Shown here in pieces: positions 50,503 through 55,542 of a DNA stretch of 64,000 nucleotides (position 1 is its first letter; each line of letters starts with the position of its first letter). Source of the stretch: Pseudooctadecabacter jejudonensis (lineage in GTDB: Bacteria; Pseudomonadota; Alphaproteobacteria; Rhodobacterales; Rhodobacteraceae). The DNA is taken from positions 806,001 through 870,000 of the forward strand of contig NZ_FWFT01000001.1 in the NCBI RefSeq assembly GCF_900172275.1, written 5' to 3'. A program made the translations under genes and the position numbers. Below the pieces are notes generated by a model, which ran no database searches, was not told where the DNA came from, and saw only the letters and a program-made list of their open reading frames with translations.

Positions 50503-52452
50503 ATGGCCGACCAAATCTCCCTTACATTTCCTGACGGCAACGCGCGCGATTATGACGCCGGCGTCACCCCCGCTGAGGTCGCCGCCTCCATCGCCACCTC
50601 GCTGGCCAAAAAGGCCATTTCGGCCACGGTGAATGGCCAACACTGGGATCTGCAATGGCCGATTGAGGCCGACGCCCAGATTGCCATCAACACCATGAAA
50701 GATGAGGCGCCAGCGCTTGAACTGATCCGCCACGACCTAGCCCACATCATGGCCCGTGCGGTGCAGGACATATGGCCCGACACCCAGGTCACCATTGGCC
50801 CCGTGATCGACAACGGCTGGTACTACGACTTCGACCGCCAGGATCCCTTCACCCCCGAAGACCTCGGTTTGATCGAAAAAAAGATGAAAGAGATCATCAA
50901 CAAACGCGACGCCGTCCGCACCGAAGTCTGGGATCGTCAGGTCGCTATCGACTACTACAAAGACCGTGGTGAGCCTTATAAGGTCGAATTGATCGACGCC
51001 ATTCCGGGCAACGAACCCTTGCGCATGTATTGGCACGGGGACTGGCAAGACCTGTGCCGTGGTCCGCACCTGCAAAATACGGGGCAAGTGCCCGGCGACA
51101 GCTGGAAACTGATGTCCGTCGCGGGCGCATATTGGCGCGGTGACAGTGACCGCGCCATGCTGCAACGCATCTATGGCGTGGCCTTCCAGAATAAGGAAAA
51201 GCTGCGCGAATACCTGAACTTCCTGGAAGAGGCCGAAAAACGCGACCACCGCAAACTGGGCCGCGAGATGGACCTCTACCACATGCAGGAAGAGGCCCCG
51301 GGCCAAGTCTTCTGGCACCCCAACGGCTGGATGATCTACACCCAACTGCAAGACTACATGCGCCGCAAGCAACGCGCCGGTGGCTATGTTGAGGTGAACA
51401 CCCCCCAGGTCGTGGACCGCAAATTGTGGGAGGCCTCGGGCCACTGGGAAAAATACCAGGAAAACATGTTCATCGTCGAAGTGGACGAAGAACACGCCCG
51501 TGAAAAGGCTGTGAACGCGCTCAAGCCCATGAACTGCCCCTGTCACGTGCAGGTCTACAATCAAGGCCTGAAATCCTACCGTGACCTGCCGCTGCGCATG
51601 GCGGAATTCGGGTCCTGCAACCGCTACGAACCCTCTGGCGCGCTGCATGGCATCATGCGCGTGCGCGGCTTTACCCAAGACGACGGCCACATCTTTTGCA
51701 CCGAAGAACAAATCGAATCCGAGACGGCGGAATTCATCCGGTTCCTGTCGGAGGTCTACAAAGACCTCGGGTTTGAGAACTTCAGCGTCAAATTCTCCGA
51801 CCGGCCCGACACCCGCGCCGGATCGGATGAGGTGTGGGACAAAGCCGAGGCCGCCCTGCTGTCCGCCACCCGTGCGGCCGGAATTGAACCCGAACTGAAC
51901 CCGGGCGAAGGCGCGTTCTATGGCCCCAAACTGGAATTCGTGCTGACCGACGCCATCGGCCGTGACTGGCAATGCGGCACGCATCAGGTGGATTTCGTTC
52001 TGCCCGAACGTCTGGACGCAACCTATATTGGCGCGGACGGCGAAAAGCACCGTCCGGTCATGTTACACCGCGCCACCCTTGGCAGTTTTGAGCGTTTCAT
52101 CGGTATCCTGATCGAAGAACACGCGGGCAAGCTGCCGTTCTGGCTGGCGCCCCGTCAGGTTGTCGTGGCCTCCATCATCTCGGACGCGGATGATTACGTG
52201 CATGAGGTCGTTGCCGCCCTTCAGGCTGCAGGCGTGCGCGCCGAGGCCGACATCCGCAACGAAAAGATCAACTACAAGGTCCGCGAACATTCACTGGGCA
52301 AAGTTCCCATTATTCTGGCCTGTGGTGGCCGCGAGGTCGAAGAGCGCACCGTGTCCGTGCGCCGTCTTGGCGAAAAGCAAACCTCTGTAACAGGTCTGTC
52401 GGCCATCGTGGATGAGCTGTCAAAATCGGCCACGCCACCCGATCTTTTGTAA
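50503..52452 (+). CDS. thrS: Threonyl-tRNA synthetase
   Basis: Charges tRNA-Thr. 649 residues from ATG 50503 after GAGGAG. N-terminal TGS domain ([19 protein letters not shown]), editing domain ([16 protein letters not shown] and [11 protein letters not shown]), class II motif 2 region ([33 protein letters not shown]) and a C-terminal anticodon domain ([12 protein letters not shown]). Full length and intact. Confidence 0.97.
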
Positions 52453-52476
52453 CAAACCAGCCTTTTGAAATGTTAC

Positions 52477-52522
52477 AGGCCCGCGCTGCGCAGAATGATG
52501 CCGCCGCGCGGGCCTTGTTTTT
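52477..52522 (+). terminator. Intrinsic terminator after thrS
   Basis: AGGCCCGCGC pairs with GCGCGGGCCT, followed by TGTTTTT, 25 bases after the stop. It separates thrS from the bufferin-type cluster, which must have its own promoter between 52523 and 52671. Confidence 0.85.
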
Positions 52523-52671
52523 ATGGGATGTTTACCAGAACCCGCTTAACTGGACCTAACAGCGCCGTGAAACACGACCCCGTGAATGGCTTGTTAAAGA
52601 ATGATCAGCCTAATGTAGGTCAGTCGCCAAGTACGGCGCGTTTACTGCAACTGAATAACGGGAACTCACCA

Positions 52672-52974
52672 ATGTCCAAGACAACCACCACCCTCGCCCT
52701 TGCTGCATCCGTCGCCACAGCCATCGCTGGTCTGAGCACAACAGCACACGCCCAATCCAACGAGAAATGCTACGGCGTCTCGCTTGCTGGCGAAAACGAC
52801 TGCGCCGCAGGCCCAGGCACAACCTGTGCAGGGACATCCACCGTGGACTATCAGGGCAACGCCTGGACATTCGTTCCAGCCGGCACCTGTGAAACAACGT
52901 CCATCACCGACGCCGCCGACGGTGTTGATCGCATGGGTTCCCTGGAAGAGCTGGACCGCGACATCCCGGCATAA
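52672..52974 (+). CDS. bufA1: DUF2282 bufferin-type RiPP precursor (BufA1-like)
   Basis: 100 residues. Signal peptide [20 protein letters not shown], cleaved after AHA or AHAQ. The mature part has four Cys at 33, 44, 52 and 73 ([32 protein letters not shown]), the DUF2282 pattern. In the recently described bufferins of Caulobacter such cysteines are partly converted to thiooxazoles and the product sequesters copper in the periplasm. An acidic 27-residue tail ([15 protein letters not shown]) follows the last Cys. Gene order with DUF692, DUF2063 and DoxX strongly supports the call. Confidence 0.85.
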
Positions 52975-53002
52975 GCCACACCCTTCGTGTTTGTGACAAA
53001 AA

Positions 53003-53027
53003 GCGCCCATCCTGATAGGGTGGGCGC
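53003..53027 (+). promoter_or_regulatory. Hairpin between precursor and maturase genes
   Basis: GCGCCCA pairs with TGGGCGC, with a smaller inner pairing TCC/GGG and loop TGATA. It lies 28 bases after the precursor stop and 20 before the DUF692 start. There is no U run. It probably sets a high precursor-to-enzyme ratio. Confidence 0.6.
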
Positions 53028-53047
53028 ACCCCATAAGGACCTGCCCG

Positions 53048-53896
53048 ATGTTTGACGCAACCAGACCCAACCTTCCCCACCGTCCGGGCGTCGGATACAA
53101 GGCGCAGCATTTCAACGATATCATGGCCGATGCGGGCCCTGTGGGCTGGCTGGAAATTCACGCCGAGAATTACATGGGAATGGGCGGACGACCCCTGGCC
53201 CAGCTACGGCATCTGTCTGAAAAGTTTCCTTTTTCTGTCCATGGCGTCGGCCTCAGCATCGGCGGCGAAGGCCCGCTGGACGCCGACCATTTGGCACGGC
53301 TGAAGCATCTGTGCGACTGGCTGAACCCCGCCAGCTTTTCCGAACATCTGGCGTGGTCGACCCATGACAGCGCCTTTTTGAACGATCTTTTGCCCCTGCC
53401 CTACACCCAAGCAACCGTCAAACGCGTGGCCGACCACATCGATCAGGTCCAATCCACGTTGGGCCGTCAGATGTTGCTGGAAAATCCGTCCAGCTATCTG
53501 GCGTTTGAAGCCTCCGACATGTCCGAAACCGACTTTCTGGCCGAGGTCGTCGCCCGCACCGGCTGTGGCTTGCTTCTCGACGTGAACAACGTCTTCGTAT
53601 CGGCGACAAACTTGGGCTATTCCCCGCAAGGCTATATCGACGCCTACCCCCTTGATCATGTTGGTGAAATCCATCTTGGCGGCCACGATGAGGACGAGGA
53701 TGAGACCGGTGCCCCGCTGCTGATCGACAGCCACGGCGCCGAAGTTGTTGATCCTGTCTGGGCGCTGCTTGACTATACCTTGGCCAAGACCGGACCAAAG
53801 CCGCTGCTGATCGAATGGGACACGGATGTCCCCGAATGGTCTGTGCTGGCCGATGAAGCCAAACGCGCCGACGCCGCATTGAACGTAGTGGCATGA
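53048..53896 (+). CDS. bufB: DUF692 multinuclear iron oxidase (BufB/MbnB-like)
   Basis: 282 residues. TIM-barrel family that oxidatively remodels peptide Cys. Metal-ligand-type blocks in order are [63 protein letters not shown] and IEWDTDVP. These match the His/Asp/Glu set of MNIO enzymes. Starts ATG 53048. Its stop overlaps the DUF2063 start (ATGA). With DUF2063 it should modify the DUF2282 peptide before export. Confidence 0.9.
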
Positions 53897-54633
53897 CCAG
53901 CCCGCAAACAGACTTTCGCGCGGCCCTGCTTGACCCGCAGGCGCCCCCTCCGCCCGGTGTTGAAAACCCTGACGGCACCCCCGCAACCAAACGTTTTGAT
54001 GTCTATCGCAACAACGTGGCCGTCAGCCTGACCGATGCGTTGGAGGCCGCCTTTCCGGTCGTCCACAAACTCGTAGGGACAGATTTTTTTCGCGCCATGG
54101 CAGGGGTTTACCTGCGCGCGCATCCGCCCACTTCACCGCTGATGATGTTTTACGGCACCCAGATGCCGGAGTTTCTAGCGGCCTTTGGCCCCGCACAATC
54201 GGTGCCTTATTTGCCCGATGTCGCTCGGTTGGAACTGGCCCTGCGCCACAGCTATCACGCCGCCGACGCAGCCCCCGTTGCCCCCGATGCGCTCGGTCAG
54301 CTGCCGCCCGACACGCTGCCCCATGTCACCTTTGCCTTTGCGCCTGCTGTGCAGATCGTGCCGTCAGACCACCCCCTGCGGGACATCTGGTGGTCCAACA
54401 CCCACGATCCGATCCCTCAGATCGTTCAAACCTCGCAGCCCACCCTTATCACCCGTCCGGACTTCGACCCCGTGGTCGATGCCCTGACACCCCCCCAAGC
54501 CGCCGTAACCCGCGCCCTGATGCAAGCGGAGCCCTTGGGCGATGCCTTGCGCCATGGCGGGGCCGCATTTGACCTTGGCCCCCTTTTGGGGCTGCTGTTG
54601 GCGCGCGGGGCCATAACCTCCCTCAAGACCTGA
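53893..54633 (+). CDS. bufC: DUF2063 partner protein (BufC-like)
   Basis: 246 residues. The N-terminal helical domain ([10 protein letters not shown], then [29 protein letters not shown]) is the DUF2063 signature, followed by [15 protein letters not shown] and [18 protein letters not shown]. In characterised systems DUF2063 proteins bind the precursor and pair with the DUF692 enzyme. The four-base overlap with bufB supports stoichiometric production. Confidence 0.9.
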
Positions 54634-54643
54634 AAGAAGACCC

Positions 54644-55183
54644 ATGATTGCCCTTTATGACCGCACAGCTCACGCCCTTGACCGGTCCGCCGACACGATC
54701 CTGCCCACGCTGGGCCGCTTTGTTTTTGCAGCCACCCTGTTGATTTATTTCTGGAACTCCGCAGGCACCAAATGGGGCGGCACGCCGTTCACCCCCGACA
54801 TTGGCGGCTACGCCCAGATCTTTCCAAAAGTGATGGAGGCCGTGGGCTATGACATCAGCCAGATGTCCATCTTCCACTGGGCCGTCGTCGTGGCAGGCAC
54901 CTTGGCCGAATACATCCTGCCCCTGTTGATCGTGATTGGCCTGTTTACACGCCTCTCAGCCCTCGGAATGATCGGCTTCGTCGTTGTGCAATCGCTGACG
55001 GATCTTTACGGCCACGGCGGGATTGAACATGCCGAAACCGTTGGCGCGTGGTTCGACAACCTGTCGAATGGTGCGATCTTGGATCAACGGGCGTTCTGGG
55101 TGTTCTTGCTCGTGGCCCTTGTGCTCAAAGGGGCCGGGCCACTGTCCGTAGACCGTCTGCTGGCCGGGCGCCGCGCCAGCTAG
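54644..55183 (+). CDS. DoxX-family membrane protein of the bufferin cluster
   Basis: 179 residues with four predicted helices: FVFAATLLIYFWNSAG, FHWAVVVAGTLAEYILPLLIVIGL, LGMIGFVVVQSLTDL and FWVFLLVALVLKGAGPLSVDRLL. DoxX homologues close most DUF2282-DUF692-DUF2063 operons. The role is unsettled (possibly quinone-linked electron transfer or export). Starts 10 bases after bufC. Convergent with the next gene, sharing CTAG. Confidence 0.88.
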   Translation: MIALYDRTAHALDRSADTILPTLGRFVFAATLLIYFWNSAGTKWGGTPFTPDIGGYAQIFPKVMEAVGYDISQMSIFHWAVVVAGTLAEYILPLLIVIGLFTRLSALGMIGFVVVQSLTDLYGHGGIEHAETVGAWFDNLSNGAILDQRAFWVFLLVALVLKGAGPLSVDRLLAGRRAS

Positions 55184-55542
55184 AAATGCGCCTTGTCCTC
55201 GTCGGGGCGGCCCGCAGCGACCGCCAACAGCCCCCCGACCCCAGCAAAGCCAATGGGGAACATCGTGGCCACGTTGAACCCAAAGGCCGCATAAAAGGCA
55301 GCCGCCCCCAAAAGCATTGCGATCCCGCCCCACAGCGCGCGGGATTTTGCCATGGCGCCGCCCGCTATGCACAACAGCGGCGCGATAAAGCTGGCAAATT
55401 GCACAAACGCCGGATTGTCGAACAACGACAGATCTGCCTCAGGCACGCGGTTGGAAAACTCCACCGCGGCAAAGCCAAACAAGCCCACGAAAATGCCGAT
55501 CAACCCGCCGATCAGCCCCAAAACACCCGCAGCGTTGCGCAT
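55180..55542 (-). CDS. Uncharacterised four-helix membrane protein
   Basis: 120 residues. Helices include VLGLIGGLIGIFVGLFGFAA, FASFIAPLLCIAGGAMA, GGIAMLLGAAAFYAAFGF and FPIGFAGVGGLLAVAAG. Its ATG shares a base with the stop of the ArsC/Spx-like gene (TAATG), so the two form an operon. Its stop overlaps the DoxX stop by four bases (CTAG). No named domain is recognised with confidence. Confidence 0.75.
   Translation of the reverse strand: MRNAAGVLGLIGGLIGIFVGLFGFAAVEFSNRVPEADLSLFDNPAFVQFASFIAPLLCIAGGAMAKSRALWGGIAMLLGAAAFYAAFGFNVATMFPIGFAGVGGLLAVAAGRPDEDKAHF

Follow-up and report, generated by a model that had tools for sequence, protein, structure and literature searches.

A Buf1-type bufferin operon of the Rhodobacterales with a conserved motif in the precursor tail and a putative tandem operator in place of a SigF-type promoter

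We analysed a stretch of 64,000 nucleotides from Pseudooctadecabacter jejudonensis (contig NZ_FWFT01000001.1, positions 806,001 to 870,000; hereafter the window, in whose own positions coordinates are given unless a contig is named), and describe in it a four-gene operon, bufA-bufB-bufC-doxX, for a predicted copper-binding peptide of the bufferin class. Judged by its gene families and their order, the locus is a genuine but ordinary Buf1 bufferin operon of a known kind; the parts worth following, as far as sequence comparison goes, are a motif in the C-terminal tail of the precursor, which runs through the lineage, and a dedicated tandem operator upstream of bufA, which replaces SigF. Overall, we consider it probable that this is a Buf1 operon under control other than SigF, with the chemistry of its family and with the tail serving as a docking segment. 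The host is a member of the Rhodobacterales and probably marine. The four genes are:

52672..52974, forward strand: bufA, the DUF2282 (Buf1) precursor, 100 residues (PF10048, 84 bits, cut-off 22.4, E 7e-24)
53048..53896, forward strand: bufB, the MNIO (DUF692) bufferin maturase, 282 residues (MbnB_TglH_ChrH, E 5e-106; NF050167, PDB 3bww)
53893..54633, forward strand: bufC, the DUF2063 partner, 246 residues, ATGA-coupled to bufB (PF09836, 93.7 bits, E 9e-27)
54644..55183, forward strand: doxX, the membrane protein of the cluster, 179 residues (PF07681, 31.4 bits, cut-off 23.6, E 3e-7)

All four proteins score above their Pfam cut-offs (DUF2282, MbnB_TglH_ChrH, DUF2063, and DoxX), and the order found at 52672-55183 is the Buf1 gene order with DoxX; Buf1 clusters are described as having the order bufABC, DoxX as a partner, and in some cases genes for a sigma factor and NrsF (PMC12452194; this and the papers below are cited from excerpts). 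A sequence-only reading of the window had proposed these four genes in this order with ATGA coupling between the two maturases, and the coordinates, the Pfam matches, and the overlap at 53893-53896 bear it out; the start that it gave, 52523, lies 149 nucleotides upstream of the bufA ATG, at the end of an apparent thrS terminator. Its description of the cluster as complete holds for the core of four genes but not for the SigF/NrsF pair that accompanies some bufferins, as NrsF has no match anywhere in the host genome. That genome (3.4 Mb, 15 contigs) contains a single DUF2282 match and a single MNIO match, adjoining each other here, and the pairing is therefore far beyond chance. BufB scores 376 bits with the NCBIfam model MNIO_BufB (NF050167; cut-off 310), and matches the Histophilus MNIO protein of PDB 3bww at E 4e-47; across 242 sequences, conservation is 98.5% or higher at H65, H100, E145, D178, N181, H209, D227, H229, E256, and other residues. 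We take these conserved histidine, glutamate, aspartate, and asparagine residues to be candidate metal (iron) ligands, as in the structures of MbnB. The assignment to the bufferins thus stands on families, gene order, the NF050167 match, and the four cysteines of the precursor; it is less secure for BufC, whose DUF2063 half is matched and whose RiPP (ribosomally synthesised and post-translationally modified peptide) recognition element (RRE) half is putative, the protein reaching 34 of the 142 bits needed with the HvfC model.

In an even sample of the order, BufA was found in 113 of 148 genomes and MNIO in 113 of 148, with identical genome lists, and BufB follows BufA in 122 of the 129 Rhodobacterales-type loci of at least 7 kb; given this frequency and this arrangement, the cluster is ordinary in the order. 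DUF2282 occurs in 291 of 390 genomes of a wider sample, and in 100 of 289 and 63 of 299 genomes of a class and a phylum sample, both of which include some family members. The loci of relatives used below are the best-scoring ones, with some regions chosen by hand, and so are no random draw, for which reason the order-wide count of tails uses the 148-genome sample. Besides the BufA and operator alignments described below, a further alignment comprised the window and 71 of 124 references. Gene calling in the long loci is crude, sometimes takes antisense frames, and undercounts bufC and doxX.

The precursor carries 27 residues after its last cysteine, with a net charge of about -6 at pH 7, and this tail falls into two parts:

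52891..52929, forward strand: variable linker of the tail, residues 74-86 (summed dN/summed dS 0.585)
52930..52971, forward strand: conserved C-terminal motif RxGSLExL[ED]RD[LI]P[AS], residues 87-100 (column conservation; summed dN/summed dS 0.159)

The four cysteines (33, 44, 52, and 73) and the acidic tail had been pointed out before (the 15 residues quoted then are the end of the tail), and the alignment of tails across relatives that was suggested at the time gave a conserved motif in 135 sequences. Counted over these distinct sequences with tails of 27-28 residues (28-residue tails were trimmed to 27, so some count as mismatches), the conserved columns, numbered from the start of the tail, are R14 (127 of 135), G16 (124), L18 (126), L21 (125), R23 (127), D24 (127), and P26 (124); in their degree of conservation, they equal the moderately conserved columns of the core. 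The ratio of summed non-synonymous to summed synonymous substitution rates (dN/dS) is 0.04 in the core, 0.585 in tail residues 1-13, and 0.159 in residues 14-27; these values, from 29 loci with 27-residue tails in the genus and near genera (335 to 384 of the 406 pairs usable), are rough, with dS near 1. By its substitution pattern, the motif is under purifying selection.

The possibility that the tail is peculiar to this genus is ruled out, as most genomes of the order sample have it: the best BufA match reaches residue 98 or beyond in 104 of the 113 BufA-bearing genomes. Three of the nine exceptions (G013, G050, and G097; loci L158, L208, and L220) keep RDLP behind an insertion, four (G087, G014, G099, and G048; L002, L004, L003, and L010) have a shorter tail with GSL and without RDLP, and the other two are G016 and G017, whose sequences were not read. 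The earlier remark that many relatives are short-tailed is right for many outside the Rhodobacterales, where the tails read are mostly shorter, and wrong for most inside; Thalassospira (L090) and Chelativorans (L100) are examples of Alphaproteobacteria outside the order in which the long tail is also found. A shorter element, G[SAKTQ][LM], is present in 243 of 265 tails with duplicates kept (267 BufA open frames from 264 sources, less L246 and L247, which do not fit the cysteine pattern). The tail, as these alignments present it, is thus a family-wide GSL element, lengthened by LxRDLP in this lineage.

Some unusual precursors were also seen. Seven loci (L158, L178, L191, L207, L208, L209, and L220) have tails of 43-61 residues, in which an insertion splits the motif and RDLP is kept, followed by 13-25 more residues. 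Tandem bufA copies occur in L189, L192, and L204, every copy being long-tailed, with PSL in place of GSL in one copy each of L192 and L204. One relative has an MNIO frame that looks broken (G112:C19:48525-49314), and its BufA match still reaches the end of the tail.

In our reading, the variable linker ends in a short docking segment, the motif RxGSLExLxRD[LI]P, whose counterpart is most likely a protein, with BufB-BufC as the first candidate; a function within the exported peptide is equally likely. If the tail is a follower, RDLP would bind BufB, or BufC through its RRE, and guide Cys44 and Cys52 to the catalytic centre, possibly alongside the signal peptide. The layout, a short motif under selection behind a variable linker, is consistent with this, as are the insertion variants (e.g., L158, L191, L208, and L220), which retain RDLP though GSLE is split off, and the co-occurrence of BufA and MNIO in the same 113 genomes. 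However, in published work it is the Sec signal peptide that acts as leader (preliminary data in PMC12452194; Junger 2026, by its title as cited in PMC13419390), and HvfA without its signal sequence is modified more poorly (PMC13419390). Homologous systems have short-tailed precursors, and no specific recognition motif was found for DUF2063-type RREs, in a passage that concerns signal peptides and leader regions (PMC12710340, mSystems 2025). We hold the follower role as a tentative proposal, somewhat short of even odds.

The same standing is given to a periplasmic role, in which the tail would stay on the exported peptide and cap the fold after the Cys33-Cys73 disulphide has formed, prevent aggregation, or bind DoxX or another envelope partner. 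It would suit the acidity of the tail and the GSL part, which is family-wide and follows the last cysteine as a part of the fold would; a linker differing in both sequence and length argues against it. That the tail is a pro-segment clipped during or after export is very improbable: its variable linker and conserved end may resemble the layout of one, but a scan of the four cluster genes and five neighbours found no protease. The earlier suggestion of a lineage-specific follower or cleaved segment holds in part: the tail is lineage-wide and under selection, but the leader role in published work goes to the Sec signal peptide. Passages of PMC12452194 on C-terminal extensions, tails, recognition, and Rhodobacter describe no such tail, and a search of the open-licence literature, weak for being limited to it, found no published report of either the tail motif or the operator.

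The second part worth following lies between thrS and bufA, and was first seen as a conserved block in an alignment of 17 near relatives:

52556..52590, forward strand: tandem operator TNACR-N4-YGYGA-NN-CACR-N4-YGTGANTGG, two imperfect inverted repeats 15 bp apart (alignment of 84 sequences)
52611..52616, forward strand: putative -10 element TAATGT (TANNNT spacing)
52625..52638, forward strand: inverted repeat CGCC-N6-GGCG in the 5′ untranslated region (aligned in near relatives)

A profile extended from this block exceeded its threshold in 131 of the 244 distinct regions upstream of bufA, and in none of 242 downstream controls or 244 shuffled sequences. The first position weight matrix was fitted to sequences that it also scored, which is addressed by a leave-cluster-out repeat: all 131 operators were recovered, and the window scored 44.9 bits when left out. 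A profile built from the window and 83 of 109 references has the bufA site as its top match in the host genome (E 6.5e-6, the window being among its 84 rows). Across 61 family genomes, 16 matches had E below 1e-3; each is in a different genome, and each is a bufA promoter. Of the weaker matches that were read, five are bufA promoters (four at E 0.003 to 0.034, one at E 0.14), and none of the other ten, at E of at least 0.04, is one. The other weak matches in the host genome are at C5:383625 (E 0.5), C5:46647 (E 0.7), and C6:396448 (E 2.7), plus a reverse reading of the bufA site; for the exact pattern GTGNNNCACN6GTGA, the other two places among the matches listed fall inside long open reading frames. 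Profile and pattern searches of the host genome found no wider regulon (one-mismatch places being read only among the matches listed), and no regulator gene was seen beside the operator-type operon, on either side, among the 14 largest neighbour clusters.

In Caulobacter, bufferin operons are under SigF control through GTAACC-N16-CGAA (PMC3511200). Of the 113 upstream regions that lack the tandem operator, 39 have a SigF-type promoter; of the 131 that carry it, the one in the window included, none does. A hidden SigF-type promoter at bufA was considered and is ruled out by this count. The sequence-only reading, which had failed to find a clear promoter of the ECF (extracytoplasmic function) type, was right in this respect, and the tandem operator stands in its place. 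Similarly, among the 129 long Rhodobacterales-type loci, 103 have the operator only, 12 have a SigF-like gene only, and none has both (Fisher p 3.7e-10, ignoring kinship; SigF-like genes were sought inside the fetched loci); among the 17 loci of the class set, none has the operator and five have a SigF-like gene. At least 14 changes of operator state fall on a tree of 225 BufB rows.

A possible trace of the older arrangement is found in the SigF-type promoters themselves. Of the 39, 15 have a single copy of CACR-N4-YGTG close to the -35 element on its upstream side, with 5-6 nucleotides between the two in 12 cases, where 0.05 would be expected from shuffled sequences; of the remaining 24, several have copies that look degenerate, and others show none. 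Promoters with a single copy just upstream of the -35 GTAAC were seen, for example, in L002, L003, L009, L014, L024, L067, L075, L161, and L232. In our reading, one old regulator site beside the SigF promoter may have been duplicated upon the loss of SigF, though the change could have run the other way. More generally, we would give about even odds to a scheme in which a dedicated, so far undescribed regulator, with TCACG-N4-CGTGA as its binding site, controls the bufferin operons of the Alphaproteobacteria, and in which many Rhodobacterales dropped SigF, doubled the site, and let the regulator alone drive a sigma-70-like promoter, the same lineage having added the GSLExLxRD[LI]P docking motif.

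Alternatively, the upstream element could be the promoter of an unusual sigma factor, or the relic of a divergent promoter, rather than an operator. A nearly fixed spacing would fit this, since TANNNT starts 43-45 nucleotides from the operator anchor in 92 of 131 upstream regions (a count made with no control run); in some SigF-type loci, moreover, one copy lies between two divergent SigF-like promoters. However, we know of no sigma recognition pattern that tandem inverted repeats of 33 bp, ending 21 nucleotides before the -10 element, would match, the SigF-type pattern is absent from all 131 operator-type upstream regions, and the upstream gene in 69 of the 129 long loci (65 of the 69 operator-type) is thrS, which is co-directional. 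We consider this explanation unlikely, and keep the operator as our reading. At the putative -10 element, a scan with the sigma-70 consensus reported no match. Downstream of it, CGCC-N4-7-GGCG occurs in 28 of the 131 operator-type upstream regions against 1 of 131 shuffled ones, and Rfam gave no match up to E 1 in 52400-53100.

The remainder of the precursor conforms to its family:

52672..52752, forward strand: predicted Sec signal peptide, residues 1-27, with AHA-Q (read by eye)
52768..52890, forward strand: core with Cys33, Cys44, Cys52, and Cys73 (alignment)

All four cysteines are invariant among 108 aligned BufA sequences (the window and 107 of 123 candidate references), and A27 is at least 90% conserved; the hydrophobic N terminus and the AHA-Q site were judged by eye only. 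In Buf1, the central pair of cysteines is modified and the outer pair forms a disulphide (PMC12452194), and the product expected on the central cysteines is a 5-thiooxazole (PMC12452194, PMC13097082). By analogy with the bufferin family, cysteine modification and copper binding would be expected here as well.

Between bufA and bufB, there is a candidate regulatory structure:

53003..53027, forward strand: hairpin of 11 pairs in the bufA-bufB gap (folding z-score)

The 73-nucleotide gap has a z-score of -2.57 against dinucleotide shuffles; 184 distinct gaps have a median length of 69 nucleotides and a median z of -2.6, with z below -2 in 135 of 184 (these shuffles preserve single-base content only). 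The stem sequences differ among the gaps that were read, i.e., the structure is kept while the sequence changes. A candidate role of the hairpin, and a likely one, is to keep the precursor mRNA in excess.

Together, these parts suggest the following mechanism. From the anatomy of the promoter, a dedicated putative regulator would bind the tandem operator, beside a sigma-70-like promoter that lacks a clear -35 box, and its binding would switch on bufA-bufB-bufC-doxX; the hairpin would keep the precursor in excess over the enzymes. As in the characterised family, BufB and BufC would then oxidise Cys44 and Cys52 in the cytoplasm, with the Sec signal peptide as leader; the peptide would be exported, the Cys33-Cys73 disulphide would form, and the thiooxazoles would bind periplasmic copper, while the tail motif would dock to a partner from the end of its variable linker.

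Several observations weigh against parts of this account. The score of BufC with the NCBIfam HvfC model (34 bits, cut-off 142) is matched by a low score of DoxX with HvfX (30 bits, cut-off 80), and a profile search of solved structures with BufC found no relative. Short-tailed precursors adjoin homologous BufB (a BufB match is present in 259 of 264 sources), and the tail motif is thus not needed for modification in general. In Microbulbifer, the products of MmrA-C, which has an EGKCG-type precursor, went undetected with or without added copper, though the MNIO/DUF2063 cluster is strictly kept (PMC12538549); a conserved cluster of this kind therefore need not respond to copper. With regard to the operator, 14 of the 129 Rhodobacterales-type loci have neither the operator nor a SigF-like gene; at most four supported independent pairs on the BufB tree differ also in the SigF promoter, all in the expected direction and not significantly so (median p 0.5). 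The profile also matches a site of unread context in one relative (G181, E 0.018), and there is an unexplained excess of the loose pattern with one mismatch in the host genome (216 places against 124 for the reversed control). A weak second match in the host genome (C5:176278-176305, E 0.06) perhaps lies between genes.

As for the surroundings, thrS, an ArsC-like gene, and a gene for a small membrane protein are often found beside the operator-type operon. In the window, thrS is followed by an apparent terminator (52478-52524, by eye), directly before the bufA promoter; it is missing from a hairpin scan that was limited to loops of 3-8. Downstream, on the reverse strand, 55180-55542 encodes a small protein with no Pfam match, a membrane protein by eye, which is the next downstream gene in 29 loci, all 29 of them operator-type.

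The bufferins form a large class of modified peptides that bind metals, and the control described in Caulobacter is SigF. An operator in the place of SigF suggests a regulator within reach of capture, which would reveal the signal (copper, other metals, or oxidants) sensed by these marine bacteria; with the tail motif, there is a defined segment for asking what recognises the precursor, how it is exported, or what keeps it soluble.

Among known systems, the operon is most like the Buf1 operons of Caulobacter vibrioides (the sigF-regulated CC3254-CC3257 and CC2907-CC2905), which have DUF2282, DUF692, and DUF2063 in the same order and four cysteines (PMC3511200, PMC12452194); CC3254-CC3257 also has DoxX, as here (PMC3511200). 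It differs from them in having no SigF/NrsF, and in the tandem operator that replaces GTAACC-N16-CGAA; its tail is longer than in many relatives outside the order. The captophorins (fontiphorin, oxazolin HvfABCX, gonophorin, and bulbicupramide) are alike in the action of an MNIO and a DUF2063 partner on cysteines, in the 5-thiooxazole, and in the frequent presence of DoxX (PMC13097082, PMC13419390), but the precursors of fontiphorin, oxazolin, gonophorin, and MmrA carry EGKCG repeats, not a DUF2282 domain with four cysteines (PMC13097082, PMC12538549). Methanobactin synthesis by MbnABC likewise uses an MNIO and a partner acting on cysteines; it differs in a leader without a Sec signal, in its oxazolone-thioamide groups, and in serving copper uptake (PMC12452194), and BufB scores only 52 bits with the MbnB model (cut-off 325).

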